DNA from: Terrabacter sp. MAHUQ-38
Lineage (GTDB): Bacteria > Actinomycetota > Actinomycetes > Actinomycetales > Dermatophilaceae
Direction: 5' to 3'
Assembly: GCF_014518425.1 (NCBI RefSeq)
Contig: NZ_JACVCU010000003.1
Coordinates: 62,001 to 126,000 of the forward strand
Length of the DNA stretch: 64,000 nt
In this document: piece by piece, positions 8,291 to 29,390 of the stretch
Numbering within the stretch: position 1 is the first letter of the stretch
Layout of the letters: each line of letters opens with the position of its first letter
Program-made: the position numbers and the translations under genes
The notes under the pieces: generated by a model
Databases searched by the model: none
What the model was told of the DNA's origin: nothing
The model's input: only the letters and a program-made list of their open reading frames with translations

Positions 8291-9433
8291 ATGACGACGA
8301 AGGTCATGACCGTGTACGGGACGCGTCCCGAGGCGATCAAGGTGGCGCCCGTGGTCAAGGCGCTCGAGGCCTGTCCCGACTTCGAGTCGACGACGGTCGT
8401 GACGGGTCAGCACCGCGAGATGCTCGACCAGGTCAACGCCATCTTCGGGATCACGCCCGACCACGACCTCGACGTCTTCGCCCACGGCCAGACCCTCAAC
8501 TCGATCATGGCCAAGGTCTTCGACCGGCTCGACCCGGTGCTCGTGCAGGAACGTCCCGACGCGGTCGTCGTCCAGGGCGACACCTCGACGGTGGCCGCGG
8601 CCTCGATCGCGGCCTTCTACCGGCAGATCCCGGTCGTGCACATCGAGGCCGGCCTGCGCAGCGGTGACATCTCCTCGCCCTTCCCCGAGGAGGCCAATCG
8701 GAAGCTGACGAGCCAGGTCACCGCCCTGCACCTCGCGCCCACCTCCACCTCACGCGACAACCTCGTGCGCGAGGACATCGACGCGGCCACCGTCGCCGTG
8801 ACCGGCAACACCGTCATCGACGCGCTGCTGCACACGGTCGAGCAGCAGATCCCCTTCACCGACGCACGGCTCGCGGAGGCCGAGCGGTCCGGCCGCTCGG
8901 TCCTGCTCGTGACCACCCATCGCCGCGAGAACTGGGGCGGCGCCATGGAGGGGGTCGGCCGCGCGCTCAAGGCGCTGGCGCTGCGCTACCCCGAGCAGCT
9001 GCTCGTGCTCCCGGCCCACCGCAACCCGATCGTGCGCCAGGCCGTGCTGCCCTACCTCGCGGGCCTCGACAACGTCCTCGTCACCGAGCCGCTCGCCTAC
9101 GGCGAGTTCACCCGGCTCATGGCGGCCTCGAAGATCGTCCTCACCGACTCCGGCGGCGTCCAGGAGGAGGCCCCGTCGCTCGGCAAGCCGGTGCTCGTCA
9201 TGCGCGACAACACCGAGCGTCCCGAGGCGGTCGAGGCCGGCACGGTGCGGCTCATCGGGACCGACGAGGAGCGCATCGTCGACGAGGTGAGCCGCCTCAT
9301 GGACGACGAGAGCCACTACGCGAGCATGGCCAACGCCGTGAACCCGTACGGCGACGGTCGCGCGGCCGAACGGTCCGTGGCCGCCGTGCGCCAGCTCTTC
9401 GGGCTCGGCGAGCGCATCGCCGACTTCGAGTGA
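8291..9433 (+). CDS. wecB: UDP-N-acetylglucosamine 2-epimerase (non-hydrolysing)
   Basis: Interconverts UDP-GlcNAc and UDP-ManNAc in the cytoplasm. The 380-residue protein begins with VYGTRPEAIKVAPVV. It carries the conserved acidic residues in VVQGDTST (D near 97), HIEAGLRSG (E near 119) and FPEEANR, the His in VTTHRREN near 210, and TDSGGVQEEAP in the UDP-binding half. It is the last gene of the operon, 14 bases after the ATPase gene. Its product is the substrate of WecC, encoded at 34.4-35.7 kb, so the locus should make ManNAcA. It meets the next gene tail to tail with a 21-base gap. Confidence 0.94.
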   Translation: MTTKVMTVYGTRPEAIKVAPVVKALEACPDFESTTVVTGQHREMLDQVNAIFGITPDHDLDVFAHGQTLNSIMAKVFDRLDPVLVQERPDAVVVQGDTSTVAAASIAAFYRQIPVVHIEAGLRSGDISSPFPEEANRKLTSQVTALHLAPTSTSRDNLVREDIDAATVAVTGNTVIDALLHTVEQQIPFTDARLAEAERSGRSVLLVTTHRRENWGGAMEGVGRALKALALRYPEQLLVLPAHRNPIVRQAVLPYLAGLDNVLVTEPLAYGEFTRLMAASKIVLTDSGGVQEEAPSLGKPVLVMRDNTERPEAVEAGTVRLIGTDEERIVDEVSRLMDDESHYASMANAVNPYGDGRAAERSVAAVRQLFGLGERIADFE

Positions 9434-15500: not shown

Positions 15501-15589
15501 ACGGCCAGGTTCTCTACTACCCGTCCGGATCGCGCCTCATGGTTGCAGCGGTCCGAGGCCCGGCCGGAGCCTCGGCACGAAACGGATAA
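12578..15589 (+). CDS. secreted beta-propeller protein, head-to-head paralogue B
   Basis: A 1003-residue exported protein: signal peptide with RRGLRAVLVVMLLAAGVAL and a likely cleavage in the following Thr/Ser/Pro stretch. As in paralogue A, the first 330 residues resemble two beta-sandwich sugar-binding modules (WDDVLGL and WVDDVTID ends). The remainder is beta-propeller blades, with WHYDTTSQAF, LWRYDPSLRR, LRYDPAQPW, FGTVPTYGVRGG and VFAYDTKRR as blade strands. The match with A runs through the whole length, so the pair arose by inverted duplication or a very old split. It starts an operon with the next two genes, 10 bases apart. No enzyme motif seen; polysaccharide binding at the surface is the best guess. 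Confidence 0.8.
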   Translation: MPGRSRVPPARRGLRAVLVVMLLAAGVALTTSSPPDRSSSVRVPSATVLGSFDTDETPPPGWTVTPARAASGLRPTAPEAQDGPRALRVTGPEAGSALNLVREVGSTRGGDRYAVAALVRPLDGSQQLILTFLDASGAPVQRVTSTTPPTNTWTRTAVAGRAPGSATRVVVTIVAPPSSAAIWDDVLGLAPLPHDPGFESSSPLGVDWAVDARGGGSIRRSADAHSGSSAAELSVPAGHVVWLRSRLVAAFPGVAHRFGAWVRATEGAVVLTVEWYAADGRVVRSSRHQVAATARWGRVTADDLAPEGATAVSVGVSTTSDRATHAWVDDVTIDSAAARPPSPGAPTRLAELAGFVTTTTSQIATVAGRAQLMTVVSGQPATFQVFDLESGRRLVTRPLGGGTNGWALTKGTTDRDVYVGGGDGHVWHYDTTSQAFTDLGRATPEATLVWGLATDDEGVVWGASYPGGQLWRYDPSLRRFSTWGRVDPTAEYARGLAVDTDAVYVGTGSVRPHIVVVPRDGSPTRRIDPPVPMRQGFVKQLQRSGRFLLARFTSNITGVYDLRASRWVTLPGPPPVTPRAMPSTAPPDDSFYFVSGGRIWKIAGSGPQSARPVAIATAALDPARDSAVVPTTIAGRAGVWLVSFDGVDLVQAVELSSVRHVVSRPLTAAPVTRVRLEPLASSLRIKSLVADGDRIHLGGFGGPSFATVDRSGRFLFRYPTDLDALDVAIGEIEGMAVNDSRVYMGSYTGARILRYDPAQPWRAARNPVQVGSLGPSYLQDRPQAWAVDGSRTYFGTVPTYGVRGGAFGWVDGPDGAVVAVRTPVRDQSVTSIAGRDGIAYVGTSRWGGLGISPTTDGASVFAYDTKRRRMLWRTQPGSGVQSVGALVLTREGELYGLADGTLIQLDPGTGQRLRSFRLSTEPAPSVTTWSNSQLVQVGTTLYAAFRGGVYAINPQSLAVVAVTTSGASPNKLATDGQVLYYPSGSRLMVAAVRGPAGASARNG

Positions 15590-15599: not shown

Positions 15600-17357
15600 A
15601 TGCCCACGGCCCTGAGACTCGGAGTTCTCGGGAGCTGTGTCAGCCGTGACATGGCCGCCCTGCACCGCGAGTGCGCTGTCGTCCTCTACGTGGCCCGGCA
15701 GTCGTTCATCAGCGCCGTCTCCCCCGGCGTGTCCGTCGCGCCGGGAGCGGGCCTCACCTCGCCGTTCCAGCAGCGCATGCTCGAGTCCGACCTCGGCTCA
15801 ACGGGTCTCGAGCTCCTGCAGCGCCACGCGCCGGAACTCGACCTGTTGGTCATAGACCTCGTCGACGAGCGTCTCGGCGTCGTGCCGCTCGCCGGAGGCT
15901 CGTACGTCACGGACTCCCAAGAGCTAAAGGAGTCCGGCACCAAAGACCTGCTCGAGGTCGTCGGGGACGACCTCGAGCTCGGCACGCCGGAGCACTTCCG
16001 GCGGTGGTGCGGTGCTGCTGGGCGGGTGGTCGACGTCCTGCGCCGGACGGGCCTGCTCGAGCGCACCGTGGTGCTGCGCGTCCCGTTCGCCCAGACCACT
16101 GCAGACGGTTCGCCCGTGGCCGCGTTCATGGGGCGGTCCGCCCTGGAGTGGGACGAGCTCTATGCGCCGTACTACGAACACCTGCAGCACTTGGGACTTC
16201 CGGTGGTCGCCCTCCCCAGGGCCTTGGCCGTGAGTGACTCCGCGCACCGCTGGGGTCCGGCCCCGTACCACTACAACCCCGAGGCCTACGGGTGGTTGCT
16301 CGATGCCGCTCGACGAGCGGTTCGGGTTCACGACGATCCAGTGCTCGCACCGCTGCCGCGCAGCCATGTGCGCATGCCGTTGAGCGTGCCTGTCGTCGGG
16401 ATAGCGAACCCAGCCACGGCCGGGAGCATCCGGTTCCCGGTCGAGCTGGCGGCCGACGTGCGACGCTGGCGCCTGCGCGTGCGCAACCTCGACCAGCGCA
16501 CGGGTCGATCGCTCGCGGGACGCGTGGACCTGACTGGCCTGTGGCTGGGCGTCGATGCCGGCAACGGGGCGCTGGCCGCGCAGCCAGTCCGCCTCATGAG
16601 CGCGCGCACCCTGCCGTCCGGTGGACGGGAGCTGGTGACAGCGTGGTTCGATCGTCCGCTGGCCGCGGGGCGCTGGTCGCTTTCGGCAGGGTGGCGGGCC
16701 GAGACCGCCAGGGCCGTGGTCGTCTCCCTCGCCGACACCTATCGCTCCCCCGATCCCGACGCCGCGGGCGAGTCCGGCGCAGAGGGGTTCTCGGCCTCGA
16801 GGTACACGCCGCTGACCTGGGCGCTCGAGCTCGAGGTGCCCGAGACCGTTCCAGTGGTCGTCGGTTGGGGCGACGAACGCCTGCTGTCCCGCGACCCCGG
16901 GGCCGAGCTGTCCAGCTCGCCTGTCTCCCGCGCGGCGCACGACATCGCCGGGGTCCCGGTGCACGTCGTGCACCCCGGGACCGGGCTGGCGCTCTGGAAC
17001 GGCTACAGCTCCCAGTGGAGCGATGCGGCGCTTCCCGAGCCAGCGCACGAGGTCTTCCACGCGATGGGGACGCGCGACGTCCTGGCAGGCACACCCGTGG
17101 AGCAGCTGCGCACGATGTTCACCGACACCCTCGCGAAGGTGCGCCGCGGCTGGGGCCCCCATGTCACAGCCGTGCTCGTCGACGACGGGACCATCAGCGA
17201 GCCCACGCACGCCGAGTCGGCCCGCGCCTTCAACCGCTGGCTGCTCGACACGCACCCTGGGCCGGTCGCGCGCATCCGCGACGGGGCGTTCGAGCGAGTG
17301 CGACCCGCGCTGGAGCGCGCTGCACCCGACTCGACCCCCCGACAGGTGAACGCGTGA
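15600..17357 (+). CDS. GSCVSRD-domain (DUF6270-like, SGNH-type) protein with extra C-terminal region
   Basis: A 585-residue cytoplasmic protein without signal peptide. Residues 5-260 form the GSCVSRD domain: GSCVSRD at 11-17, YVARQS at 30-35, FQQRM at 56-60, LVIDLVDERLG near 83-92 and HRWGPAPYHY near 216-225. This is the block order of the family I recall as DUF6270. The N-terminal GSC and late D..HRWG look like the nucleophile and DxxH blocks of SGNH hydrolases, so esterase or acyl transfer on a sugar is inferred. Residues of about 280-420 look beta-rich; 430-585 is unassigned. Two more copies of the domain lie at 19.3-21.0 and 27.6-29.4 kb. Its stop overlaps the next start as GTGA. Confidence 0.75.
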   Translation: MPTALRLGVLGSCVSRDMAALHRECAVVLYVARQSFISAVSPGVSVAPGAGLTSPFQQRMLESDLGSTGLELLQRHAPELDLLVIDLVDERLGVVPLAGGSYVTDSQELKESGTKDLLEVVGDDLELGTPEHFRRWCGAAGRVVDVLRRTGLLERTVVLRVPFAQTTADGSPVAAFMGRSALEWDELYAPYYEHLQHLGLPVVALPRALAVSDSAHRWGPAPYHYNPEAYGWLLDAARRAVRVHDDPVLAPLPRSHVRMPLSVPVVGIANPATAGSIRFPVELAADVRRWRLRVRNLDQRTGRSLAGRVDLTGLWLGVDAGNGALAAQPVRLMSARTLPSGGRELVTAWFDRPLAAGRWSLSAGWRAETARAVVVSLADTYRSPDPDAAGESGAEGFSASRYTPLTWALELEVPETVPVVVGWGDERLLSRDPGAELSSSPVSRAAHDIAGVPVHVVHPGTGLALWNGYSSQWSDAALPEPAHEVFHAMGTRDVLAGTPVEQLRTMFTDTLAKVRRGWGPHVTAVLVDDGTISEPTHAESARAFNRWLLDTHPGPVARIRDGAFERVRPALERAAPDSTPRQVNA

Positions 17358-19180
17358 CACGTTTCTCCGAGGACGCCGCCCGGGCCCAAGCCATCGGTTC
17401 GCACTTCTCTGCGCTGGCGCACGACCGACGCCTCTGCGACGAGCTGCTCAGCGGATCCTTGACCCTGCCGCCCCACGCCGCGTGGAGGCTGCCCGCCGAA
17501 CTGGCCTGGAACGAGAACCCCTTCCGCGAGATCAACTGGACCGCGCAGCTGCACATGCTCCGCTGGATCGACCCGCTGCGGCGCCGCGCCGACACAGGCG
17601 ACCTCCGCGGCGTCGACCTGTGGGTGCGGACAGTGCGTTCGTGGATCGCGGCCAACCCGCCCGGTCGCGGCCGGGCGCAGTACGCGTGGGGTGACATGGT
17701 CGAGGCCGTCCGGGCCATGGTGATGTGCTTCGGTCTGCCGATGCTGCGCGACCACGCCCCCGATCACCTCGACGCGGTGCTTGCGTCGGTCACGGAGCAC
17801 GGCGAATGGCTCGCCGACCCCGCCCGCATCCGCATCGGCAACCACGCCCTCCAGCAGCACCAGGGCCTGCTCGTCATCGGTGCCGTGCTCGAGCGCGACG
17901 CCTGGGTCGATCTCGCCATCGAGCGCATGGTGACGATGCTGCGCTCGGCCTACGACGAGGACGGCATCAACGAGGAGGGCGCGGTGCAGTACCACCAGAT
18001 CAACTACTCCTGGTGGAGCCTGACCAAGCGCCGGGTCGAGCTCGTGCGCGGACGGGCCCCCGACGAGTTCTCCCGCATCGACAAGGCGCCAGTGGGGCTG
18101 GCCCACGCCACTCGTCCCGACGGCACCTACGAGCTGATCGGTGACACGGAGGTGTACTCGCTCCGCGGAATACCGCATCCGGCAGTCACCTGGGTGGCCA
18201 CGGGCGGCGACGCCGGGGCACCCCCTCCGGAGCGCGTGAAGGTCTACGGGTCGGGCTACGTCTTCGGGCGCAGCGGGTGGGGTGATGCCCAGAGGCCCTT
18301 CTCCCAACAGGGCTACTACACGTTGCGCTTCGGTCCGCAGAACCGGATACACGGGCACGAGGACGGTGCCGCGCTGACGTTCTACCACCGCGGCCGCTCG
18401 GTCCTCGTCGACGGTGGCAAGTATGCGTACGACGCCAAGGACCCCCTGCGCGCCCACCTGCTGTCGCGGCCGGCGCACAACGCCGTACACCTGCGGGGTG
18501 AGGCGTATGACCGGACGACGAGCGTGGAGCTGACCCGCAGCACGCTGCGCGAGCACGGCGAGGACTTCGAGTTCGTCGACCGGGGCTACGCCGGTGCGGT
18601 GCTGCGTCGACGCGTCGTCGTCATGTGGGACCTCGAGGCGGTCATCGTGACCGACGATGTGGAGTCCGACCATGACACCGAGGCCGTGCAGGTGTGGCAC
18701 CTGGATCCGAGCGCTGGGCACCGCGTCGAGGCCGGCACCGTCCTGGCCCTCCAGCGCGACGAGGGGTCGCTGCACACGTGGTTCTCGTCCCTGCAGGGCG
18801 GCACGTCGCTCTCCGTGGTGCGCGGTCGCCGCGACCCATGGCAGGGTTGGACCTCTCCTCGGTGGCGCGAGCGGGTCGAGACCCGCACGATCGAGATCTC
18901 CGCGACCGGCCGTTCGCTGCGGCTGTCGACACTCATCGACCTGTCCGACCGCCCGACACGACCGTCGGTGGAGGTCGTCACGGTGCCGTCCTGCCGGGCG
19001 GCCGACCCGTCGGCCGTTGACGCGGCAGGCGCGGTGGACGAGGTGGACGTCGTGAGGTGGTCCACGACGGACGGGGTGGTGCGCTCGGTGGCCCTCGGCG
19101 CGGACTGGTTCGTGACCGACCGCCGTGGCACGTCCGCGGAGGACGTCGCCCGCCTCGGCCGCGACAGCTTCGGCCGCTGA
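17354..19180 (+). CDS. heparinase II/III-family protein
   Basis: A 608-residue protein with the two-part heparinase II/III plan: an alpha-helical toroid at about 1-270 and a beta-sandwich from about 290. Family-type active-site segments are present: IGNHALQQHQG (Asn-His) near 170, EEGAVQYHQINYSWW (Tyr) near 210, and IHGHEDGAALTFYHRG (His) near 335, followed by VDGGKYAYD. The family cleaves uronate-containing glycans by beta-elimination, which suits the UDP-glucuronate and ManNAcA genes here. No signal peptide is visible, so it may act in the cytoplasm or leave by an unseen route. GTG overlaps the previous stop (GTGA). Homologues are often encoded in capsule and slime loci. Confidence 0.83.
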   Translation: MTRFSEDAARAQAIGSHFSALAHDRRLCDELLSGSLTLPPHAAWRLPAELAWNENPFREINWTAQLHMLRWIDPLRRRADTGDLRGVDLWVRTVRSWIAANPPGRGRAQYAWGDMVEAVRAMVMCFGLPMLRDHAPDHLDAVLASVTEHGEWLADPARIRIGNHALQQHQGLLVIGAVLERDAWVDLAIERMVTMLRSAYDEDGINEEGAVQYHQINYSWWSLTKRRVELVRGRAPDEFSRIDKAPVGLAHATRPDGTYELIGDTEVYSLRGIPHPAVTWVATGGDAGAPPPERVKVYGSGYVFGRSGWGDAQRPFSQQGYYTLRFGPQNRIHGHEDGAALTFYHRGRSVLVDGGKYAYDAKDPLRAHLLSRPAHNAVHLRGEAYDRTTSVELTRSTLREHGEDFEFVDRGYAGAVLRRRVVVMWDLEAVIVTDDVESDHDTEAVQVWHLDPSAGHRVEAGTVLALQRDEGSLHTWFSSLQGGTSLSVVRGRRDPWQGWTSPRWRERVETRTIEISATGRSLRLSTLIDLSDRPTRPSVEVVTVPSCRAADPSAVDAAGAVDEVDVVRWSTTDGVVRSVALGADWFVTDRRGTSAEDVARLGRDSFGR

Positions 19181-19206
19181 GGTCCGTCGCGGTGAAGCCC
19201 CGGACC
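19181..19206 (+). terminator. weak hairpin after the heparinase gene
   Basis: GGTCCG (19181-19186) and CGGACC (19201-19206) can pair across a 14-base loop directly after the stop codon. There is no T run, so this is only a candidate terminator for the operon ending here. Confidence 0.25.
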
Positions 19207-19260
19207 ACGACGGCGCGAGCGCGGGGAGTGCTCGACGCTGGTGAGGTCACTCCGCAGGGC

Positions 19261-20961
19261 TCAGCCGACCTCGGTCGCCGGGACGGCACCCCAGCGTCGC
19301 GCCAACGCAGCCCAGTCCCCGTCGACCGGTGCCACGTCCTGCATGAGCGAGCGCAGCTCGCGGGCGGTGGGGGGAACATGTCCGCGGCCCCACTCACGAA
19401 GCAGCAGGTGGACACCGTCGTGCGTCGGTAGTGCTTGCAGCCACGGCCGCAGCTGCGTGGTCACGTGGGCGTCCTGGGAGTTCTGCAGGTAGATGACGCT
19501 GTTGTCGAACCCGCCCGCGTACACCCTGCGCAGGTCGGCCCGCGGGTGCGCGTCGAGCGCCGCGAGGGCCGCCTCTGCGCCCACCGCTCCGAGGCAGGCG
19601 GCCGCGAAGGCCTGCCAGGCCGGTGGGTGGTAGTCGGCGATCCGTGTCTGCGCGTTGACGGGCACGGCGAGCGATCCGGGGAAGGTGTGGGACAGGTTGA
19701 GCGAGGCAAAACCGCCCCCGGACATCCCGAAGAAGACGAGATGACGGGCGCCGAACCCGACCTGGATGGCGCTGATGGCATCGTGGAGCAGGCGGGTGAG
19801 GTCGAGCCCGGTCCCGCCGAGGTACCAACCGAGCTTGAGCTCGGGGTCGAGGCAGAGGCTGGCATCGGACACGAAGATGCGGTTGACGGGCAGTCCTTCG
19901 GTCACGGAGCGACCGGTGAAGATCGGGAGGTCCATGGGCTTCTGGCCCATCGACGCGTGCAGGCTGACGACAGTCGTCGAGGCCTGGTTGTCCTCGACGA
20001 GCAGATCGACCGGGGCCGCTTCCGTGATCAGGGTGACGAGCCCGTTCCGTGGCCGGGCACCCGCAAGGTCCCTGACCGAGCCGAAGATCTGCGCCTCACC
20101 CCACGTGCTGGGATCGCGACGTCCCACCTCGGTGAAGGCGTTGACGGAGACTGGTTCTGCGGCGGGCGAGATCGCCTCTGTCTGCAATGGTTCGGCCCTT
20201 TGGGGCGCAGCGGCGAAGGCCGCGATGCCATCGGCCAGGTGGCGGTAGGCAGGCTCCATGTAGTGGAACGGACTCGGTCCCCAGCGATGGTCGAGGGGTG
20301 AGCGCGCGAGGTCTTCGGGCAGGTCGATGACCGTCAGGCCGAGCCGTTCCACGTGCTCGAAGTAGCGCTGGTAGAGGCGGTTGGCCGTGTCCGGAGCGGT
20401 CATCCAGCTCGGGATCGGGATCGGGCTCCCGTCCGGTGCGAGTTTCGCCCAAGGGGTGCGCAGGACGACGGTCCGTTTCTTGAGGCCCAGACGGTTCAGG
20501 TGCCCGACCACGGCCTCGAAGGACCCCGACCAGGCGTCGAAGTGCTCGTTGGTGCCGAACTCGAGCAGCGGGATCCCGGCGGTGACCTCCCGCCCTCCGG
20601 CACTCCACAGCTCGGCGAGCTTTGTCACGAAGCCGCCTCCGATGGGAACGACACCGCCGCGCTCGTCGATGAGGTCGATGAGCACCAGGTCGACGTCCTG
20701 GGCGTTGCGCTCGAGCACGGCGGGCAGGTCGCCGCGCACGTCGCCGCCGACCATCCGGTTCTGGAACGCGGACGGCAGCTGCTTGAGCCGGGTGAGTACC
20801 CCGTCGGCGGGCGCCCCGGCACTGATGGCGGACTGCCGGGCGACGTAGGTGACGAGTCGGTAGGTGTCCGGCAGGAACTCGAACGTGTCACGCGAGACGC
20901 AGCTGCCGTAGATCAGCGTCCGCGTCTCGTCACGCTCGTCGTCGAGCGGCGTGTCGGTCAT
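19261..20961 (-). CDS. GSCVSRD-domain protein fused to an Asp2-like alpha/beta hydrolase
   Basis: A 566-residue two-domain protein. Residues 14-250 are the GSCVSRD domain: GSCVSRD 19-25, YVARQS 39-44, FQNRM 66-70, LVLIDLIDERGG near 92-103, HRWGPSPFHY 225-234. Residues of about 270-545 form an alpha/beta hydrolase with nucleophile elbow GMSGGG at 412-417 (Ser in the centre) and a candidate His in GRGHVPP near 528. The second half recalls the accessory-Sec protein Asp2, a sugar O-acetyltransferase relative. Two acyl-handling domains in one chain suggest O-acetylation or de-acetylation of the polymer; this is inference. The ATG overlaps the stop of the asparagine-synthetase-like gene (ATGA). It converges on the heparinase operon with an 80-base gap. 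Confidence 0.76.
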   Translation of the reverse strand: MTDTPLDDERDETRTLIYGSCVSRDTFEFLPDTYRLVTYVARQSAISAGAPADGVLTRLKQLPSAFQNRMVGGDVRGDLPAVLERNAQDVDLVLIDLIDERGGVVPIGGGFVTKLAELWSAGGREVTAGIPLLEFGTNEHFDAWSGSFEAVVGHLNRLGLKKRTVVLRTPWAKLAPDGSPIPIPSWMTAPDTANRLYQRYFEHVERLGLTVIDLPEDLARSPLDHRWGPSPFHYMEPAYRHLADGIAAFAAAPQRAEPLQTEAISPAAEPVSVNAFTEVGRRDPSTWGEAQIFGSVRDLAGARPRNGLVTLITEAAPVDLLVEDNQASTTVVSLHASMGQKPMDLPIFTGRSVTEGLPVNRIFVSDASLCLDPELKLGWYLGGTGLDLTRLLHDAISAIQVGFGARHLVFFGMSGGGFASLNLSHTFPGSLAVPVNAQTRIADYHPPAWQAFAAACLGAVGAEAALAALDAHPRADLRRVYAGGFDNSVIYLQNSQDAHVTTQLRPWLQALPTHDGVHLLLREWGRGHVPPTARELRSLMQDVAPVDGDWAALARRWGAVPATEVG

Positions 20962-22805
20962 GCGTCGGGGACCTCGATCTCGATGGTGTCCGGTGAAGCG
21001 GGCCTCTCGCCGAGCCAGCCGTTGTTCAGGGTGTACTGCGCCGAGAAGAGCGCCCAGGCTGCCGGGGCGCGGTATCGGCTCCCGCCGAGCATCTTCTCGA
21101 CACTGCCCCTGTCGATCACGTCGAAGAGCAGGCTGGACGGTTGGTCCAGGACGTACGACGTGAAGTACTGCGCAAGAGCCGGGGTATAGCTGACCCGCCA
21201 GTTGAAGTTGGCCCGCGGCACGTTGGTGGCCGTGTATGGCTCGCGGGACTCCCAGCCCTGTGGGTCGTGGAAGCCGCTCGGCCCCTTCGCCTCGAAGGCC
21301 CAGCGATCCCGGAAGAGGGGGAGGTCTGCGACCCCGGGGATGATCGTGTTCATCACGCGGTGGGCCAGCCGCTCCTCGACCAGCGTCTCGTCCGGCGCAG
21401 CCAGGATGCGGCGCACCATGCGGTTGTTGATGAGCAGCGTCGCGTGGGGTGCCACGACGGACTCGCCGTGGCGCATCGTCGCGAGCCAGCGCCCCGTGCG
21501 GTCGCGTACGTAGGCGTCGAGCATGCCCCGGACGGGGACGTTGCTCACCCGCTGGAAGCTGGCGGAGAGGTCTCGGTGGACCGCCTCGGTGGCCAAGGGC
21601 GACAGGAGGTCAGCGTTGTTGAACCACAGGGTGTTGAGCAGGCGCAGGGCGCTGTCGCGGCCATGGTCGGTGCCGGCGAGAGATCTGGCCCAGCCGCCGC
21701 GGATGATCTCGCCACCCTGACCGCCGAGGTTGACGGAAGAGGTGATGAGCACGTGCTTCTTGGCCGGATCGGGCAAGGTGGTGAAGGCGTTTCCGAGACC
21801 GCCGGTCGAGCGCAGGGTCATCCATGCCTGCAGTTCCGGCTGGACCGGCAGGACGGTCCTTCCGGAAGGCGCCGTGGTCAGCACCGGACGGTTGGTGCGG
21901 TGCTCGGCGCCGAGCAACGCCGCGACCTGCCTGCCCACGAGGACCTCGCCGCTCTCATCGAGCCCGTTCGTGTAGGCCGTGAACGGGATGCCGGCCGCGG
22001 TCAACGCGGAAGTCACGAGGCGGCTGTCCTTGCCACCGGTGATGGCGGCCATGACCGTCTCGGCGCCGCCCGCAATGGTCCTCGCGTAGTCGACCAGGCT
22101 CTCCGCGACCGACGAAGCGATCTCGTCGAGACCGGCGTCGGCGTCCGCCTTCCAGATGTAGTGGTCCTCGACGCGCAGGTCGTGGCGCTCGTCGCAGACC
22201 AGCCGGGAGCCGGGTGGGGCGATGCGCACGTCAGCGAAAACGGTCGTGTTCGTGACCGGCAGCCCGTGCACGATCGCTCCCGCGAGCCCGAGTGCGCTGT
22301 AGACGGGTGACCTGGAGCCGTGCCGCACGAGGTTGAGGACCGCCGCGGAGTTGCTGAAGAGGACCGCGTCGTCGACCTCGGCGTAGTACATGGCCTCGCT
22401 GCGGTGCACGTTCGTGAAGACGCGGAGCGTGTCGGGTCTCGCACCGATCATGGCGAAGCTGCCGATCGCGTCGTCGACTGCCGCCGCGACGGGTTCACGG
22501 GTGTGGTCGCCCGCACGGAGGACGGGAAGCAGCTCCTCGCCCACGACCCCGGTCCACGCCCAGGCGCGAGCCTTGTTCCCGATCCAGCCGGCCCGGGTCG
22601 CGGTCGACTCCGGCTCGTTGCTCCGCACGAGCATGCCGACGCGGCCGGCGTTGGGCGTCCAGCGCAGGTCGGTGATGGTGTGCTCGGACGGCCATGGCGT
22701 GACGGCGTCGAGGGCCGTGACGGCACGACTCATGACCCGTTTGAAGCCTGCCACCTCGCCGGCGGGCACGTGGTTCTTCAGACGTGCCGCGAAGATCAGG
22801 CGCAC
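20958..22805 (-). CDS. asparagine-synthetase-like amidotransferase without the glutaminase cysteine
   Basis: A 615-residue protein. The synthetase half carries the PP-loop as ITGGKDSRLV (TGGKDS at 256-261), which binds ATP and activates a carboxylate by adenylation. The preceding 250 residues keep the fold pattern of class II amidotransferases (for example FSNSAAVLNLV near 150), but the protein begins VRLIFAARL, with no Cys at position 2, so glutamine cannot be hydrolysed the usual way. It may use ammonia or another amine. In a glycan locus the likely target is a uronic acid carboxylate, giving an amide; this is inference. GTG start 3 bases after the giant glycosyltransferase gene; the end overlaps the next gene. 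Confidence 0.78.
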   Translation of the reverse strand: MRLIFAARLKNHVPAGEVAGFKRVMSRAVTALDAVTPWPSEHTITDLRWTPNAGRVGMLVRSNEPESTATRAGWIGNKARAWAWTGVVGEELLPVLRAGDHTREPVAAAVDDAIGSFAMIGARPDTLRVFTNVHRSEAMYYAEVDDAVLFSNSAAVLNLVRHGSRSPVYSALGLAGAIVHGLPVTNTTVFADVRIAPPGSRLVCDERHDLRVEDHYIWKADADAGLDEIASSVAESLVDYARTIAGGAETVMAAITGGKDSRLVTSALTAAGIPFTAYTNGLDESGEVLVGRQVAALLGAEHRTNRPVLTTAPSGRTVLPVQPELQAWMTLRSTGGLGNAFTTLPDPAKKHVLITSSVNLGGQGGEIIRGGWARSLAGTDHGRDSALRLLNTLWFNNADLLSPLATEAVHRDLSASFQRVSNVPVRGMLDAYVRDRTGRWLATMRHGESVVAPHATLLINNRMVRRILAAPDETLVEERLAHRVMNTIIPGVADLPLFRDRWAFEAKGPSGFHDPQGWESREPYTATNVPRANFNWRVSYTPALAQYFTSYVLDQPSSLLFDVIDRGSVEKMLGGSRYRAPAAWALFSAQYTLNNGWLGERPASPDTIEIEVPDA

Positions 22806-22808
22806 GGC

Positions 22809-25800
22809 TCAGCCCGCCCCGATGGGCGCGGCCACGTCGGTCACGGCCCGTCCTGTCGTCAGGCTCACCAGGCGCGCCAGCACGCCGCCGCTGTCGAAGC
22901 GTTCGCGGGCCACGGCGTGCCAGCCGTCGGGGTCGGCCTCGTCCTCCGCGATACGCCGGACGAGGTCATCGACGTCGGCCGAGATCCACTCGCGGGGGTA
23001 GATGAGGTCGGACCCGGCCCAGGCCAGCAGGGCCGGCATCGCGCCGGATGCGGCGCCGTCGGCGATGGTGAGGTGGAACGACTCGAAGTCGCTGACGGAA
23101 AGCACGATCCCGATCTGCTGGTACCACTGCGCCATGTCGTCGCCGTGTCCGTCGAGCAGTACGGAGCCGGGGCGGACGCGATTGATGCGCTCGATCCGCG
23201 CGAACTGCTCGTCGTAGTAGGCAGACTCCTCGGGCCGGTTGGCCATCCACGGGTAGTCGGCCGGCGTCTTGCCCTTGATCCGCAGCCGGTGGTCCAGGCC
23301 CCTGGCGTGCAGTCCTTCGAGGACATCGAGCGCGAGGTCGAGCCTCTTGCGCGCCGGGACGATGCCGACCAGCCCCAGGGTCCGTGCGGCCTCGTCGACC
23401 TTCGGCCGCCGCAGCAGCTGTGTGTCCACGGCGTTCGCCACCACGTGGGCCTTGTCCGACGGGACGCCGTGCCCGAGGACGGCAGCCTCGCGGATGAGGT
23501 CACCGACGAAGACGTACGCGTCGACGTTCTCGTGCTCGACCCGGGCGAGGTAGGGCCGCTGCAGCTCCTGCAGGTGCACCCGAACCACCAGACGCTGCTC
23601 GGGACGCACGTGCCGCGAATACCAGACCGCGTTGCCGAGACCCCACTCGCAGAACACCACGTCCGCCTCAGCGAGGAGGGCGCGGGACCGCGCCTCGTCG
23701 TGCTCACTGTGCGAGCGCCAGACGTCCGTCGTGACCACGGCACCCTGTTGCCGCAGCTCTTCCAGCAGGCCGGTCGCGAACTTCAGGTCGTGGCCGGCCA
23801 CGAGCACACGCTGACCTCGGACGGAGGCGGGGTCGAGGTCGATGCGCGAATCCTGTGCCGCTGCCGCGCCGTCGAGGCGCGTGGCCGGCACCGGAGCGGC
23901 GCCGCCCGTCGGCACGAGCAGACGCACGCCGTTGACGCCATCGGAGCGCAACGCCAGGTCCAGGTCACCGTGCTCGTCCAGGAGCCCACGGCGCACGAGC
24001 CCGGCGAGCGAGTGCGTTCCGTTGATCGGGGTGGCGATCGGCTCACCCATGCTCGGCACGTCCGTGCTCGGCACGATCCGGTCCCACGGGCCGTAGAGAT
24101 CGGCGAGCAGCAGGTCCTCGAACCACGTCCGTCCGATGGGCTCGTCGACGCGTGCGACGAAGTCACATGCGGTAGCCGTCAGCGACTCCCGCGACGAGTC
24201 GCGCACGGCGACTGTCGTTCCCGCGAGGGCGGCGCGCACGCCGTCCAGGTCACCCTCACACCAGATCTCGCGTGGCGGAACCGACTGTGCCGCAACGGAC
24301 TCGGCCACCTCCGGGCGGGCTGGGTCGAGCAGCACGGCATACGTGGGCAGGGAAAGGGCGGCCACGGGGACACCCGCGGTCCTGGCGAGGATCGTCATCG
24401 CCGCGTCGACCGTGTGGGATCGCAGCACGGTGCGCATCTGCAGCCAGGACTCCGCGAGGCGCGCGGCGGGGTCGGTGGCCCACGACCGCAGCAGGGCTCG
24501 CCAGACGAGTGGGTCCGAGCTCGTTGGGACGGCGGACCCGAGCGTCTCGGTGATGCCGCGCCCTGCGCCCGAGAGCACGACGCCGCCACATGCCGCGACC
24601 TCGATGACCCGTCGCGAGAACATCGTCGGCGACGACGTCACCGAGTTGACGTTGAGGTTGACGAGGTGCGCCTTGTAGCTGTCGACGACGTCGGCGTAGG
24701 GCAGCGACCCGCGTACGTATGGTGCGAGCGTGCTCGGGAACCGGTAGGGCGAGTCGGGTACGTCGGCCTGGCGGTCGTAGATGGCCAGGCCGAACGGGCG
24801 CGCCGTCTCGAGCAGCTGCGACAGCTCCTGCGACCGCGTGGCATAACGCTCCCCGTAGTACGTCCCCGCGTAGGAGGCGGTCGTCTCGAACGGGCGGCCA
24901 CCCGGCAGCGGGTTGTGCAGGCGCGGCTGGGCATAGAACGGCAGCGACGCGACCGACCGGACCGTGCCGACGCCGGCCGCCGCGTAGTCGACGATCTTGT
25001 CGGCGTCGGTCGTGAACACGTGGTCACACAGCGACGCGGTGCGCACGAACCGGTCGAAGTGGATCGGGTCCTCCTTGTTCCAGAACACCGAGGGGATGCC
25101 CTGATCGCGCGCGCTCGAGAGCAGCTCGGCCAGGTCGCGGTGCTCCTCAGGTGAGTAGTAGCCCACCCCGCGGTGCCACTCGCCGCCGTTGCCCTTCCAT
25201 GCCGACTCGACGAGAACGAGGTCGAGACCCTCCAGCTGGTCGCGCCAGTGCGCTCGGTCGAGCGGGCGGACCGCGTACGAGGCCGAGAGCGTCGCGGTCG
25301 TGAACTCGTCTGCGACCAGCCCGATGCGCAGGTCTTCCAGCCGGACCGTCCGTTGGGCCGCCAGCGTCGCCGCGGCCCGTCCGACCGCACCCTCATGCGC
25401 CTGGACCAAAGTCGCGCCGAGCCTCGACCACGTCCGCTCGTCGAGGCACCAGAGCCGGCCGGCTCGGCCGAGGCCGACCCGCCGGTCAGGTTCGCGCACG
25501 AGCCGCTCCAGCACATCGGCGAGCGAGTCCGCGTCACCAGCGCGGAAGAGGGCGGCGCGACGCTCGTCACCTCCGGCGATGTCGAGGTGCGGTGCGACGT
25601 CGGACAGCACCACGGCCTTCGCGCTGCTCAGGGCCTCGAGCGGCTTCAGCGGCGAGACCATCTGGGTGACGGGCACCGAGATGCGCGGACACGGCATGAT
25701 GTCGAAGCAGCTGATGAGGCGAGGCACGTCGGCCGCGGGAACCCGGCCCAGGAACGTCACTCGGTCCTCCAGCGCGCGCTCGAGCACCTGCTCCTTCAGG

Positions 25801-27356
25801 GCCGCCTCGGCACTCCCCGACCCGGCGAGGGCGACCTGCACGTCGACCCGACGGTCCCGTAGCACGGACACGGCGTCGATGAGGACGTCGAGGCCCTCGT
25901 AGGGCACCATGCTGCCCGCGAAGCCGATCACGGGCACGTCTGGACGCAGCCCCAGCTGGGCGGCATACGACTCGTCGCGCGGCAGCGGCACGAACTCCGC
26001 GGTGTCGACGGCGTTCGCCGCCACCGTGATCTTCTCGGCCGCCACACCACGTCGGACGAGCTCGTCCCGCGTCTGGGGCGTGATCGCGAGGACCGCGTCG
26101 GCCTCACGCGCGACGAGCGTCTCGAGCTCGGCCTGCAGGCGGTAGCGCTGGGTGGACTCCCAGCCAGGCTTGTCGGAGGCCTCGGTGATCTCCCAGAGCC
26201 CGCGCACCTCGTAGACGAACGGGACGCCGAGCCGGCGCGCCGCGATCAGGGCCGACAGGCCGACGCGGTAGTTGGACGCGGCCTGGATCACGCCGGGCCG
26301 ACGCATCCGGGCCTCTCGCACGAAGGCGTCGGCGCACTGCTGGATGTAGTGGTCGGTCGGCGTGGGCGCGAGGGCGCGTCCCGGCAGGTGCACGTAGTCG
26401 ATCCCGTCGACCTCGACGACGTGGCGCACCTGCTTCGGCTTGGCCACGTCCGCCTTGCCGTCCCACGGGTAGCCGGCCCGGCCGACGACCACGACGTCGC
26501 GGCCCGCGTCGCGCAGACCCCGCGCCACGCCACGGGTACGCAGTGAGTAGCCGTTGGTGTTGAACGCCGGCGTGGAGTGGACGCAGTAGAGGACCCGCGA
26601 CGACTCCGCGACGTAGGCCGGCCCGGCACCACGTGCCGGCAGAGAGATGCCGTCACGACGGATGCGGTCGGCTGCCAGGATCCGCTCGGCGAGCTCGCGC
26701 TGGGACGCGTCCAGGTCGCCGACGATCTCTGGATGGGCGGCGATCATCGCCGCCGGCTCCTCGATGAGGCCCTGGTGATACCAGGCCCGCGTCAGCACGT
26801 GGCCCAGACGTCCGGGCGTCGGCGACTCCTGGAACCTGGCGATCAGCTCGTCGTAGGAGTAGTCACGCAGGCGCCTCTCGCCGGCCCCACCCGCGGGCAC
26901 CGCGGGTGACGACGCAGTGGTCACCGTCCCGGGCTCACGCGCGGTGGGCGCCGACACCCCGGACGCGTTCGTCGCCAGGGACTGCGCACGAGGTCGCAGG
27001 AGCGACGCAGGCCTGGCGATGACTCGAGCGAGCCGGTAGGTCCGCGAGCCCCGCACCCGCTTGAGGTCGGCCTTGAGGCGCGCGCTCTCGGCCCGGTACG
27101 CATCGAGGGCGGCGTTCGCACTGCCGAGACGCTGGGTGAGCTCCGCCTTCTCCCGGCGCAGCCGCTCGAGCTCCTTGCGGTTCTTGGCGGCCTCCTTGAG
27201 CTTCTTGCGCGAGGTACGGTCGCGCTGGTCCAGCTCGAGATACTTCGTCCAGAGGTTACTAGCGTCGCTCTTGACCTCGGCGAGCACGCGTCGCTCCAGA
27301 TCGCGCGGATCCCGCTGCTCGTCAGGGTGCATCACTTGTTTCTGCCGTTCTGTCAC
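22809..27356 (-). CDS. giant multi-module glycosyltransferase (coiled coil, GT4, CgeB-like, GT2-like remnant, GT4-like)
   Basis: A 1515-residue protein. Residues 1-125 are a charged coiled coil. About 255-660 is a GT4 enzyme (NTNGYSLRTRG, VYEVRGLWE, SPLKPLEALSS). About 680-1050 is a CgeB-like module with VESAWKGN, PSVFWNKEDPIHF and NLNVNSVTSSPTMFSRR. About 1055-1200 resembles a GT2 domain, but the metal-binding Asp cluster is gone (VARVDEPIG). About 1215-1510 is a third GT-B unit (VVANAVDT, VGIVPARKRLDLALDVL, SDFESFHLTIADG). One chain could add several sugars in order, as in polymerase-type capsule enzymes; that is inference. GTG start at 27356; an in-frame ATG lies 24 bases downstream. It heads a three-gene minus-strand operon. 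Confidence 0.85.
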   Translation of the reverse strand: MTERQKQVMHPDEQRDPRDLERRVLAEVKSDASNLWTKYLELDQRDRTSRKKLKEAAKNRKELERLRREKAELTQRLGSANAALDAYRAESARLKADLKRVRGSRTYRLARVIARPASLLRPRAQSLATNASGVSAPTAREPGTVTTASSPAVPAGGAGERRLRDYSYDELIARFQESPTPGRLGHVLTRAWYHQGLIEEPAAMIAAHPEIVGDLDASQRELAERILAADRIRRDGISLPARGAGPAYVAESSRVLYCVHSTPAFNTNGYSLRTRGVARGLRDAGRDVVVVGRAGYPWDGKADVAKPKQVRHVVEVDGIDYVHLPGRALAPTPTDHYIQQCADAFVREARMRRPGVIQAASNYRVGLSALIAARRLGVPFVYEVRGLWEITEASDKPGWESTQRYRLQAELETLVAREADAVLAITPQTRDELVRRGVAAEKITVAANAVDTAEFVPLPRDESYAAQLGLRPDVPVIGFAGSMVPYEGLDVLIDAVSVLRDRRVDVQVALAGSGSAEAALKEQVLERALEDRVTFLGRVPAADVPRLISCFDIMPCPRISVPVTQMVSPLKPLEALSSAKAVVLSDVAPHLDIAGGDERRAALFRAGDADSLADVLERLVREPDRRVGLGRAGRLWCLDERTWSRLGATLVQAHEGAVGRAAATLAAQRTVRLEDLRIGLVADEFTTATLSASYAVRPLDRAHWRDQLEGLDLVLVESAWKGNGGEWHRGVGYYSPEEHRDLAELLSSARDQGIPSVFWNKEDPIHFDRFVRTASLCDHVFTTDADKIVDYAAAGVGTVRSVASLPFYAQPRLHNPLPGGRPFETTASYAGTYYGERYATRSQELSQLLETARPFGLAIYDRQADVPDSPYRFPSTLAPYVRGSLPYADVVDSYKAHLVNLNVNSVTSSPTMFSRRVIEVAACGGVVLSGAGRGITETLGSAVPTSSDPLVWRALLRSWATDPAARLAESWLQMRTVLRSHTVDAAMTILARTAGVPVAALSLPTYAVLLDPARPEVAESVAAQSVPPREIWCEGDLDGVRAALAGTTVAVRDSSRESLTATACDFVARVDEPIGRTWFEDLLLADLYGPWDRIVPSTDVPSMGEPIATPINGTHSLAGLVRRGLLDEHGDLDLALRSDGVNGVRLLVPTGGAAPVPATRLDGAAAAQDSRIDLDPASVRGQRVLVAGHDLKFATGLLEELRQQGAVVTTDVWRSHSEHDEARSRALLAEADVVFCEWGLGNAVWYSRHVRPEQRLVVRVHLQELQRPYLARVEHENVDAYVFVGDLIREAAVLGHGVPSDKAHVVANAVDTQLLRRPKVDEAARTLGLVGIVPARKRLDLALDVLEGLHARGLDHRLRIKGKTPADYPWMANRPEESAYYDEQFARIERINRVRPGSVLLDGHGDDMAQWYQQIGIVLSVSDFESFHLTIADGAASGAMPALLAWAGSDLIYPREWISADVDDLVRRIAEDEADPDGWHAVARERFDSGGVLARLVSLTTGRAVTDVAAPIGAG

Positions 27357-27483
27357 ATTGTGTCCGCCGACAGTCTAGGCAGCGAGCGGATTTGCCTCGA
27401 CACGCTTCGCCGGCATTGGCCGGTATAGCCTGTCATGGCCTCAGACCCGGTCGGGCGCGGCCGGCCCGAGAAGGAGACATTCG

Positions 27484-27585
27484 ATGTCCGAGCTTCAAGA
27501 CGGCGGTCCTAGCCGGCTCATGCATCACGCGGGGTGTTGCACAGCCAGCCTGAATCGTCGCCGCCGGATCAATGGACCGGCGTGA
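27484..27585 (+). CDS. possible 33-residue leader peptide or start of a frameshifted gene
   Basis: AAGGAG at 27471-27476, 7 bases before an ATG, is one of the best ribosome sites in the window. Yet the frame it opens (MSELQDGG...) stops after 33 codons. Its TGA (27583-27585) overlaps a GTG of the large downstream frame as GTGA, the coupling arrangement used repeatedly in this locus. It is either a real leader peptide coupling translation of the next gene, or evidence of a frameshift or sequence error in that gene's start. The peptide matches nothing I know. Confidence 0.4.
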   Translation: MSELQDGGPSRLMHHAGCCTASLNRRRRINGPA

Positions 27586-29390
27586 CCAGCGACGCACTCA
27601 TGCCGCGCCTGACCTCTCAGGGCGGGTCGGTGACCCTGTCGAGCGGACGACGTCTCGGGATCAAGATCGACCTCCTTGGCGACGTTGAGGGGCTGCAGGA
27701 CGGAGGGGCCGTTCCCGTGTGGCTGGTCCCTGGTTCGCGCATGGTTGGCCATGGCATCCCGGCTCGCAACAGTGGTCCACAGCCGGAGGACGTTGCGCTC
27801 CCAGCGGTAGTCGTCACGTTCGAGCCCTGCGAGGTCGACTCTGCCTCTGAGCAAGGCGAACTCACCGACGTCCTCGCCCGCCTTTGCGACCGGCTTGGGC
27901 GAGAGATCGTCCTACTCGGGCAGGACGAGACTGCCGAGGAGGCGCTCGCGCAGGCCGCCGCCCTGGGGCAAGCCGCCAGTTGCCTGGTGTGGTCGCTCCC
28001 GCGCCGGGACGCCGGGGATGGAGCCCCCCTTTCCCCCGGAAATACATCATGGGGACGGCGTACGGTCATCCTGCAGGACGCCGCCGACCCCGGCATCCGC
28101 ACCGGCCTCGGGCCCCGAATGCGGGCCCTTGGCTATGTCCACCGCGGGCGTGGACTGCACACGACCGCAACAGGTCATTGCGCGATCATCCTTCGGTTCG
28201 GCACCGATGACCACACCCCCTCTCCGACGTTGCTCAGGGTCGCCCTCGGCTCTCTCCTCGATCCAGGGCGGCCCGCCCGCAGCGTCTTCGAGGCGCTCCA
28301 GGGCGCGGGCTTCATCGACGCCGCGTCGGCGCTGGCGCTCCCCCGCGACCTGAGACGTGAGGCGTGGTCACTGCTGGCCGATGCGGCCCTCGAGGCCGAG
28401 CCGGTTGCCTCTGATCGGCAGTCCGTTCGCATGAGCGGAGTCAAGACCGGAGTCGGCGGTCTGACTTTCGAGTTCAGTCTCACCTGCGACGCAGACGACC
28501 CGACGGACGCGCCGCTCCGAGTCATCACCGCCTCGCCCTCAGCCACACTGCGCACCGAATGTCCAGGCACCCTCAAGGTGGCGGTGGTCGACGGGCTGGG
28601 TAACCGCCTGCAGACGCTCTGGTCACGCTGGCCGATCGCCGACAGCGGCGCGCAACGTTCCCTCGCGCCGGTCGTGTTCGTCTACGGCAGCTGTGTCACC
28701 CGCGACGCCTTTGCGCTTAGCGGGGCGCCGCCACTCGCCGACTACATCGCGCGGTCGCCACTCGGCAGCGCCTTCTCGCCGCCCCCCGATGCGCAAGACC
28801 TCATCCGGCTCGAGGACAACCCCTCAGCGTTCCAGCGGCGCATGGTCGACGTGGACCTCAACAAGGGGTTGGCCACGCTGCTCGAAAGCACAAGATTTGA
28901 CCTGCTCGTGCTCGACTTCATCGACGAACGACTATCGATGGTTCGCACGGGCTCGGGCTTCGTTACGTACTCACCTGAGGCAGAACGATGCGGCCTGAGG
29001 CCGGACACGGCAGACCTGGTGAGTCCGGGTTCAGCCGAGCACGTCGCGGCGTTCACGTCGGGGCTCGACGCGCTCATCGCGGTGGTCCCCTCAGACCGGA
29101 TACTCGTCAACAAGGTGTATTGGGCCACGACGACAGCCGACGGGGAGCCGCTCGCCCACGCCGACTCGATCCGCCAGAACAACGAGACGCTGGACGCCCT
29201 GTATACCCTCTCGGCCGATCGGGACCTGCGCTTCCTCCACTACCCCGAACGCGTCTTCGTCTCCGATCCTGCTCACAAGTGGGGCCTGTCGCCCTTTCAT
29301 TACGCAGGCACCCTTTACGACCACACCCTGCGAGGAATTGCAGGGGCCTTTTCGGATCTCTCTGTTCACGCGACAGCATCCCGCCGTTAG
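27582..29390 (+). CDS. protein with C-terminal GSCVTRD (DUF6270-like, SGNH-type) domain
   Basis: About 602 residues from the GTG chosen. The GSCVTRD domain is at the C-terminal end (about 365-602), with YGSCVTRD near 368, YIARS, FQRRMVDVD, LLVLDFIDERLS and DPAHKWGLSPFHY close to the terminus. The D..HKWG block matches the DxxH layout of SGNH enzymes. The first 360 residues are unassigned alpha/beta sequence with no motif I recognise. The start is uncertain: GTG 27534, GTG 27582 and ATG 27600 are in frame. I prefer 27582 because it overlaps the stop of the short frame that has the good ribosome site. The gene is alone on its strand, facing a divergent glycosyltransferase and converging with the next gene 16 bases on. 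Confidence 0.72.
   Translation: MTSDALMPRLTSQGGSVTLSSGRRLGIKIDLLGDVEGLQDGGAVPVWLVPGSRMVGHGIPARNSGPQPEDVALPAVVVTFEPCEVDSASEQGELTDVLARLCDRLGREIVLLGQDETAEEALAQAAALGQAASCLVWSLPRRDAGDGAPLSPGNTSWGRRTVILQDAADPGIRTGLGPRMRALGYVHRGRGLHTTATGHCAIILRFGTDDHTPSPTLLRVALGSLLDPGRPARSVFEALQGAGFIDAASALALPRDLRREAWSLLADAALEAEPVASDRQSVRMSGVKTGVGGLTFEFSLTCDADDPTDAPLRVITASPSATLRTECPGTLKVAVVDGLGNRLQTLWSRWPIADSGAQRSLAPVVFVYGSCVTRDAFALSGAPPLADYIARSPLGSAFSPPPDAQDLIRLEDNPSAFQRRMVDVDLNKGLATLLESTRFDLLVLDFIDERLSMVRTGSGFVTYSPEAERCGLRPDTADLVSPGSAEHVAAFTSGLDALIAVVPSDRILVNKVYWATTTADGEPLAHADSIRQNNETLDALYTLSADRDLRFLHYPERVFVSDPAHKWGLSPFHYAGTLYDHTLRGIAGAFSDLSVHATASRR

Follow-up and report, generated by a model that had tools for sequence, protein, structure and literature searches.

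A 64,000-nucleotide stretch of the genome of Terrabacter sp. MAHUQ-38 (contig NZ_JACVCU010000003.1, positions 62,001 to 126,000; hereafter the window, within which all coordinates are counted) carries three genes whose products share the domain DUF6270 (PF19786), in the setting of a surface glycan exported by an ATP-binding cassette (ABC) system. Our results point to an SGNH-like domain in which a cysteine probably stands in the place of the catalytic serine, and, among the functions weighed below, we favor with some reserve that of a cytoplasmic, acyl-coenzyme A (acyl-CoA)-dependent glycan O-acyltransferase. All three copies match the Pfam profile over positions 1-222 of its 222 positions (E values of 2.1e-57, 1.5e-64 and 5e-52 for copies 1, 2 and 3), with scores of 177.5 to 218.4 bits against a curated cut-off of 27.5, and they are the only PF19786 matches in the genome (5.16 Mb searched). 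Pfam lists DUF6270 only as of unknown function, and no work naming it was found in the available literature.

A preliminary description, made from the sequence alone, had recognized the three open reading frames (ORFs) and their common domain as they are found here (Table 1), and its suggestion of an acyl esterase or transferase is supported by the structural model and the genomic context, whereas the active site it proposed is not. The motifs it listed are present in the copies, except that copy 3 reads YIARSP, so that Y(V/I)ARxS is inexact there. No signal peptide was obvious, by eye, at the starts of the three proteins.

Fold and predicted active site of DUF6270

Since the matches of full-length copy 2 in a fold search were taken up by its alpha/beta-hydrolase domain, the DUF6270 domain of this copy was folded alone, from an alignment of 68 sequences, and gave an AlphaFold2 model with a predicted local distance difference test score (pLDDT) of 96.2 and a predicted template modelling score (pTM) of 0.91. 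The best VIA-align match of this model was the peptidoglycan O-acetyltransferase PatB (7tlv; Z 12.8, root-mean-square deviation [rmsd] 3.1, 174 residues aligned); other matches were a further PatB entry (8tlb, Z 12.4), OatA (6vjp, Z 10.1) and, below PatB, many SGNH/GDSL esterases, and the 50 matches listed were, by title, mostly SGNH/GDSL entries, with three designed scaffolds among them. PatB and OatA share 9-14% identity with DUF6270 in the aligned rows. The comparison thus supports an SGNH-like fold for the domain, as the preliminary description had anticipated. Sequence searches of the PDB gave nothing useful for DUF6270: whole copy 2 had a single match, within its second domain (E 0.071), and the best match of the DUF6270 profile A1 had an E value of 1.5.

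Catalytic residues of known SGNH structures were carried over to copy 2 from the first and last residues aligned by VIA-align plus an offset, for the 9 of the 50 listed rows that have known catalytic residues. For MsAcT, TesA and SsEst we used the residues that we take to be catalytic. Those of Axe2 (S15 and H194) and 5b5l (S10) come from the entry titles, and those of Staphylococcus aureus OatA (S453, H578), CjPatB (S138, H310) and NgPatB (Ser133, His305) from the available text of PMC5697884 (OatA) and PMC12148441 (both PatB proteins). By this mapping, the catalytic serine falls on the cysteine of the GSC motif (C21 of copy 2) in 7 of 8 rows, and the catalytic histidine on the histidine of P-F-H-Y (H233) in 7 of 7, with both residues of 8tlb and of 6vjp among these; the Ser-His spacing of NgPatB, 172, is also that between residues 25 and 197, on which C21 and H233 fall. 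Judged from the model, therefore, the nucleophile position of SGNH block I is probably the Cys of GSC, where block I has the Ser of GDS, and the block V histidine is probably that of P-F-H-Y, usually without its Asp.

Residue conservation was assessed in two samples. The first comprises 91 sequences (88 related loci plus the window) and is motif-biased, its loci having been chosen by motifs that include GSCV[ST]RD and H[RQK]WGx[AS]PFH; the second was picked with Pfam and draws on 60 loci for its 67 rows, 63 of them distinct and one of these lacking coverage of the cysteine; it takes in the copies of the window and a plasmid locus that came from tblastn, and several of its genomes are common to the first. 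The cysteine of GSC is invariant in both (91/91, and 62/62 distinct covering rows). The preceding serine is present in 87 of the 91 sequences of the first sample and replaced by Gly in four (L059, L109, L110 and L114). In all four, the second Asp of DxxDER is Val as well (DxxVER), and they belong to two separate clades. That the two changes always go together, in two parts of the tree, suggests that this Ser and this Asp are in contact and form a possible contact pair.

H233 is likewise found in 62/62 distinct rows of the second sample. Three residues before it, where block V has its Asp, stands Ala or Ser in 61 of the 62 (Ala, Ser and Ser in the window copies) and Asp in one. This one, a relative from outside the order (G357, seen as L033 and L034) with a match that two frames share between them, thus has a regular Asp-x-x-His at this second histidine. 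The preliminary description had instead assigned block V to the histidine of H(R/K)WG (H225 in copy 2), eight residues before H233, and to the Asp three residues before it, and had taken the Ser of GSC as the nucleophile. Its report of Asp at that position in copies 1 and 3 and Pro in copy 2 is accurate, but Asp is found there in only 31 of the 67 rows, and the HxWG histidine is Ser in locus L204, which keeps the second histidine. The serine is probably not the nucleophile, and the Ser-to-Ala mutant that had been suggested would probably hit the wrong residue.

Further departures may concern blocks II and III. An Arg directly after strand 2 (R42), invariant in both samples, may stand at or near the site of the block II Gly, and DxxDER after strand 3, which lacks Asn, perhaps at that of the block III Asn. 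The available part of a review of SGNH enzymes (PMC9487903) describes a block II Arg that serves the oxyanion hole in PatB1, as well as dyad enzymes that lack the acid, so that an Arg at this site and the missing block V Asp have precedents; a cysteine nucleophile was not met in that part. Compared with PatB and OatA, DUF6270 carries a Cys in place of the Ser, mostly lacks the Asp of block V and, by eye, shows no obvious signal peptide. As it departs from the family in this Ser and this Asp, we regard it as having an SGNH fold without being a canonical SGNH hydrolase.

A CoA-binding capsule enzyme with a comparable residue pair is WcbI (PF18588), in which Cys14 lies near His201 in the CoA site and which is encoded in a capsule locus (available part of PMC4104973); its relatives carry Gly-Asn-Cys. 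The parallel is functional only. A kinship was not borne out by hhalign, which gave no significant match of DUF6270 to 30 WcbI sequences (probability 0.7%); PF18588 has no match in the genome, and at E 0.01 PF19786 is the sole family reported for the three copies. WcbI is absent from the 50 VIA-align matches listed, which says nothing about relatedness.

Partner domains of the three copies

At E 0.01, neither Pfam nor NCBIfam has a match for the second domain of copy 2, but it resembles the O-acetyltransferase of the Neisseria meningitidis serogroup A capsule (CsaC, or SacC) and the Asp2 (Gap2) protein of the accessory Sec system. A profile of 18 hydrolase sequences of this type (A3) matches Asp2 (6lnw, E 2.9e-6) and, more weakly, CsaC (6yuo, E 0.013), and relatives of the domain match the Asp2 and XcbB/CpsF models below cut-off. 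The active residues of CsaC are S114, D198, H228 and an unusual Q138 (available text of PMC7501274). CsaC S114 and Q138 align with an invariant Ser and Gln of A3, S414 and Q438 in copy 2; D497 and H528 were matched by order and spacing only, the Ser-Asp and Asp-His spacings being 83 and 31 residues in copy 2 and 84 and 30 in CsaC, and all four columns are invariant in 18/18 rows. The Ser-Asp-His-Gln set is thus in place. In the AlphaFold2 model of full-length copy 2 (pLDDT 86.6, pTM 0.58), the best VIA-align matches were Gap2 (Z 18.9) and CsaC 6yuo (Z 18.5, rmsd 3.2, 227 residues aligned). Asp2 has been linked to glycoprotein O-acetylation (PMC5578698, PMC7948813). By analogy, the domain is likely an acetyltransferase, which differs from CsaC in being fused to DUF6270 and from Asp2/Gap2 in being encoded within a polysaccharide locus.

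In this genome the A3 profile finds copy 2 as its single match. Elsewhere, relatives of the hydrolase precede or follow DUF6270 in fusions or have a gene of their own. A hydrolase lies within the fetched flank in 33 of the 88 related DUF6270 loci (11 as fusions) and is missing from 55, at a threshold of 40 bits, by which three DUF6270 proteins with weaker hydrolase matches of 25-33 bits (L075, L083 and L098) are counted as lacking it. Other partners occur as well: among ten fusion-like DUF6270 relatives that were scanned, two carried a sulfotransferase domain and one a GT2 domain; a fourth had a sulfotransferase match that stayed under the cut-off, and the remaining six had DUF6270 only. In Cellulomonas telluris (L060:10415-13501), a Heparinase II/III-like protein is fused to a CsaC/Asp2-like hydrolase, and in the window, copies 1 and 2 have a heparinase gene between them.

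The regions of copies 1 and 3 that the preliminary description had left unassigned can now be assigned in part. The N-terminus of copy 3 matches hydrolase-DUF6270 fusions in L049, L055, L024, L016 and L078 (E 1.1e-15 to 2.1e-8), the strong matches spanning residues 174-362 of the 618-residue ORF, about where the hydrolase ends and the linker follows. Over the elbow, the similarity is weak (best E 0.0013), copy 3 is missed by the hydrolase model at E 1e-3, and when the sequences are aligned collinearly, copy 3 shows neither the Ser elbow nor the Gln. By these comparisons, the region appears to be a decayed form of the copy 2 hydrolase and, provided that this identification is right, would be expected to lack activity. 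Homologues of the copy 1 tail are the tail of the corresponding gene in genome G079 and, with the region that precedes the GDSL part included, a PF13472 GDSL protein (L041:12385-13749, E 4.4e-8); in copy 1, the GDSL part lacks both GDS and the block V end, and a Pfam search with the tail alone gave no match. From this homology, we read it as containing a decayed GDSL domain.

Proposed reaction and alternatives

In the reaction that we favor, the cysteine, activated by the histidine, would take the acyl group from acyl-CoA as a thioester, with the backbone NH of the cysteine and the invariant Arg that follows strand 2 stabilizing the oxyanion, and the group would then be passed on to the surface glycan that the locus makes, at one of its hydroxyls, before export by the ABC system. 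Copy 2 would add a second acyltransferase, of the CsaC/Asp2 type with Ser-Asp-His-Gln, fused to DUF6270, while the hydrolase of copy 3 and the GDSL domain of copy 1, which look dead, probably serve in binding or structure. More tentatively, and with more doubt than confidence, we suggest that DUF6270 may found a branch of SGNH enzymes that use a cysteine nucleophile and acylate glycans through an intracellular thioester, and that, together with a CsaC/Asp2-like hydrolase (fused in either order or encoded nearby), it may form a glycan acylation system with two active sites in the surface-polymer loci of many Micrococcales.

In many bacterial surface sugars, acylation is shaped by SGNH enzymes, for which the available part of the review gives serine as the residue used (PMC9487903). 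No report of an SGNH enzyme acting on a polysaccharide with a cysteine nucleophile was found in the available parts of the literature, where the one paper met on an SGNH enzyme and a catalytic cysteine is on a thioesterase. A large, unnamed family with the SGNH fold and an invariant cysteine would give a new handle on the cytoplasmic acylation of polymers; an uncharacterized family would gain a specific, testable function, probably the addition of acyl groups to a sugar polymer; and a Cys-versus-Ser point mutation would be a direct test of the proposed chemistry. The CsaC/Asp2-like domain of copy 2, in turn, is a candidate enzyme for O-acetylation in actinobacterial glycan loci.

Several points weigh against this interpretation. 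The offset mapping assumes that there are no gaps between the aligned ends, and one of the eight serine rows, 8gr2 (its numbering assumed to be that of 8tlb), is off by three at the Ser. The Ser of GSC is nearly as conserved as the cysteine, being present, like it, in 62/62 distinct covering rows of the second sample, so that this sample alone cannot choose between the two and the argument for Cys comes down to four sequences plus the structural register. Nor is a role assigned to H225 or to invariant Asp and Arg residues. Foldseek TM-scores, though in agreement with an SGNH fold, are modest (0.36-0.50 by query length, first 20 matches), and when hhalign compared DUF6270 with 28 GDSL sequences it gave no significant match (probability 0.6%, P 0.099), so that any distant homology rests on structure and not on profiles. 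As for the partner of copy 2, generic esterases follow closely behind Gap2 and CsaC (Z 17.3 and below), and the Foldseek list for the full-length protein is headed by esterase D. Finally, the joint occurrence of the hydrolase and DUF6270, which in itself speaks for the interpretation (the hydrolase occurs in 17 of the 25 DUF6270 genomes of the family and in 6 of the 161 others; Fisher p 1.6e-13), is inflated by fusions, which count in it, and by shared ancestry, which the p value ignores, and its scoring covered at most 12 candidates per genome.

The same data leave room for other functions. DUF6270 could be a cysteine-dependent deacylase, that is, an esterase or thioesterase that trims acyl groups coming from the fused CsaC-like acetyltransferase, the pair editing the acylation pattern. 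Many of its structural neighbors are esterases, and copy 2 does join it to a likely acetyltransferase, but the best single structural match is the acetyltransferase PatB, and in 55 of 88 loci no such acetyltransferase reaches 40 bits within the fetched flank; moreover, a cysteine acyl-enzyme would suit transfer better than ester hydrolysis. We consider a deacylase unlikely, without finding it far-fetched. The Cys-His pair might also serve another chemistry, such as the transfer of a non-acyl group (e.g., a phospho-linked or amino substituent) or the formation of an amide or thioester, given that DxxDER without Asn and an extra, nearly invariant histidine make for a pocket unlike the usual SGNH sites, and that the fused sulfotransferase and GT2 domains represent mixed chemistry. 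Against this, the context and the partner domain point to acylation, and no non-acyl SGNH reaction came up in the available parts of the literature, which makes such chemistry improbable on balance. A module that mainly binds glycan or protein, with a fold retained from a former SGNH enzyme, would fit the company that the domain keeps in the locus, where a GDSL domain has decayed and an alpha/beta hydrolase appears to have done so, but is quite improbable, given that the positions of the Cys, the second His, the Asp and the Arg are invariant over deep divergence and that the domain often stands alone. Scarcely tenable, finally, is a serine SGNH esterase or transferase with the HxWG histidine and its Asp as block V: the fold, the Asp in two of the three copies and the conserved serine of the second sample agree with it, but it is contradicted by the Gly in four sequences, by the scattered occurrence of the Asp, by the loss of that histidine in L204 and by the structural offsets, according to which the active site holds the Cys and the second His.

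Lineages and genomic setting

In a tree of 105 DUF6270 domains, the three window copies fall into three separate clades, each with relatives elsewhere, which argues against the earlier notion of one enzyme used three times in the locus. The nearest neighbor of copy 3 is weakly supported, while its wider group is starred. Genome G079 has the same block as the window, namely, the exporter ATPase, epimerase-like, PQQ-like, copy-1 type and heparinase genes, facing the copy-2 type, asparagine-synthetase-like and large glycosyltransferase genes; it has one PQQ-like gene to the two of the window, and its third DUF6270 is shorter (a 277-residue frame) and lies further off. The asparagine-synthetase-like gene also adjoins the copy 2 type in L041. 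Separate clades and a shared block make the copies look old and separately inherited, as opposed to recently duplicated, and, as old lineages, they probably acylate different positions or sugars.

DUF6270 was found in 25 of 186 genomes of the family, 83 of 396 of the order and 2 of 396 of a phylum-wide sample, this genome being counted in each; from these matches, only those made into loci were examined further. At least two matches occur in 11 of the 25 family genomes, mostly close together, though the two of G112 are about 92 kb apart, and some of them partial (the third match of G063 and of G065 covers part of the profile), so that local multiplicity recurs. An alignment query for relatives gave 301 matches, of which the best 80 were kept; a single-protein scan of genome contigs with whole copy 2 found no relatives. 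Annotated phage records had no DUF6270 match, and plasmid records one, in a glycan locus of Bacillota, in the fetched stretch of which the hydrolase model found nothing at E 1. DUF6270 genes are also present in contigs filed as viral (L115-L122), which may be phage or host DNA, and that of L122 is fused to the hydrolase.

The features of the locus are collected in Table 1, where gene names beyond the Pfam matches are readings by eye. From the look of their sequences, we take the exporter ATPase to be wzt-like and the epimerase-like gene to be wecB-like. Among the 88 related loci, a homologue of the latter lies directly upstream of DUF6270 in 24 and the exporter ATPase in 8.

Table 1. Features of the DUF6270 locus of Terrabacter sp. 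MAHUQ-38 (positions within the 64,000-nucleotide window)
Feature	Position	Strand	Basis or remark
ABC exporter ATPase	7287-8276	+	Label by eye
UDP-GlcNAc 2-epimerase-like gene	~8291-9433	+	Label by eye
Copy 1 ORF	15600-17357	+	DUF6270 ~15624-16274 (PF19786, residues 9-225); tail ~16365-17354
Copy 1, predicted nucleophile Cys13	15636-15638	+	Conservation; structural mapping made on copy 2
Copy 1, second His, H224	16269-16271	+	Conservation; structural mapping made on copy 2
Heparinase II/III-like protein	17354-19180	+	PF07940, PF16889; overlaps end of copy 1 by 4 bases
Copy 2 ORF	19261-20961	-	DUF6270 ~20260-20913; CsaC/Asp2-like alpha/beta hydrolase ~19264-20121
Copy 2, H528	19378-19380	-	Matched by order and spacing only; invariant in A3
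Copy 2, D497	19471-19473	-	Matched by order and spacing only; invariant in A3
Copy 2, Q438	19648-19650	-	Aligned to CsaC Q138; invariant in A3
Copy 2, S414	19720-19722	-	Aligned to CsaC S114; invariant in A3
Copy 2, predicted catalytic His233 (P-F-H-Y)	20263-20265	-	Conservation and structural mapping
Copy 2, H225 (HRWG)	20287-20289	-	Second, nearly invariant His
Copy 2, predicted nucleophile Cys21	20899-20901	-	Conservation and structural mapping
Asparagine-synthetase-like / macrolactam-cyclase-like protein	20958-22805	-	NF033561 (below cut-off, E 3e-9); adjoins copy 2 on its upstream side
Multi-domain glycosyltransferase, 1515 residues	22809-27356	-	PF13692, PF00534, PF13439, PF13524, PF13579
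Copy 3 ORF	27582-29390	+	First listed in-frame start 27534; DUF6270 C-terminal, ~28680-29303
Copy 3, N-terminal region, apparently decayed alpha/beta hydrolase and linker	to ~28649	+	Homology searches, collinear alignment
Copy 3, predicted nucleophile C371 (numbered from 27582)	28692-28694	+	Coordinate mapping
Copy 3, second His, H573	29298-29300	+	Coordinate mapping

Two divergent genes for large proteins lie between the epimerase-like gene and copy 1 (9455-12436 on the minus strand and 12578-15589 on the plus strand); the second has an SMP-30-like Pfam match, below cut-off only, and their products match the same relatives and hence look homologous. Finally, the product of 37757-38686 (plus strand) has a hydrophobic start, as judged by eye, and an SGNH-like stretch with GDG for the expected GDS (PF13472 at 30.4 bits against a cut-off of 32.9), and is likely another decayed SGNH protein of the same locus.

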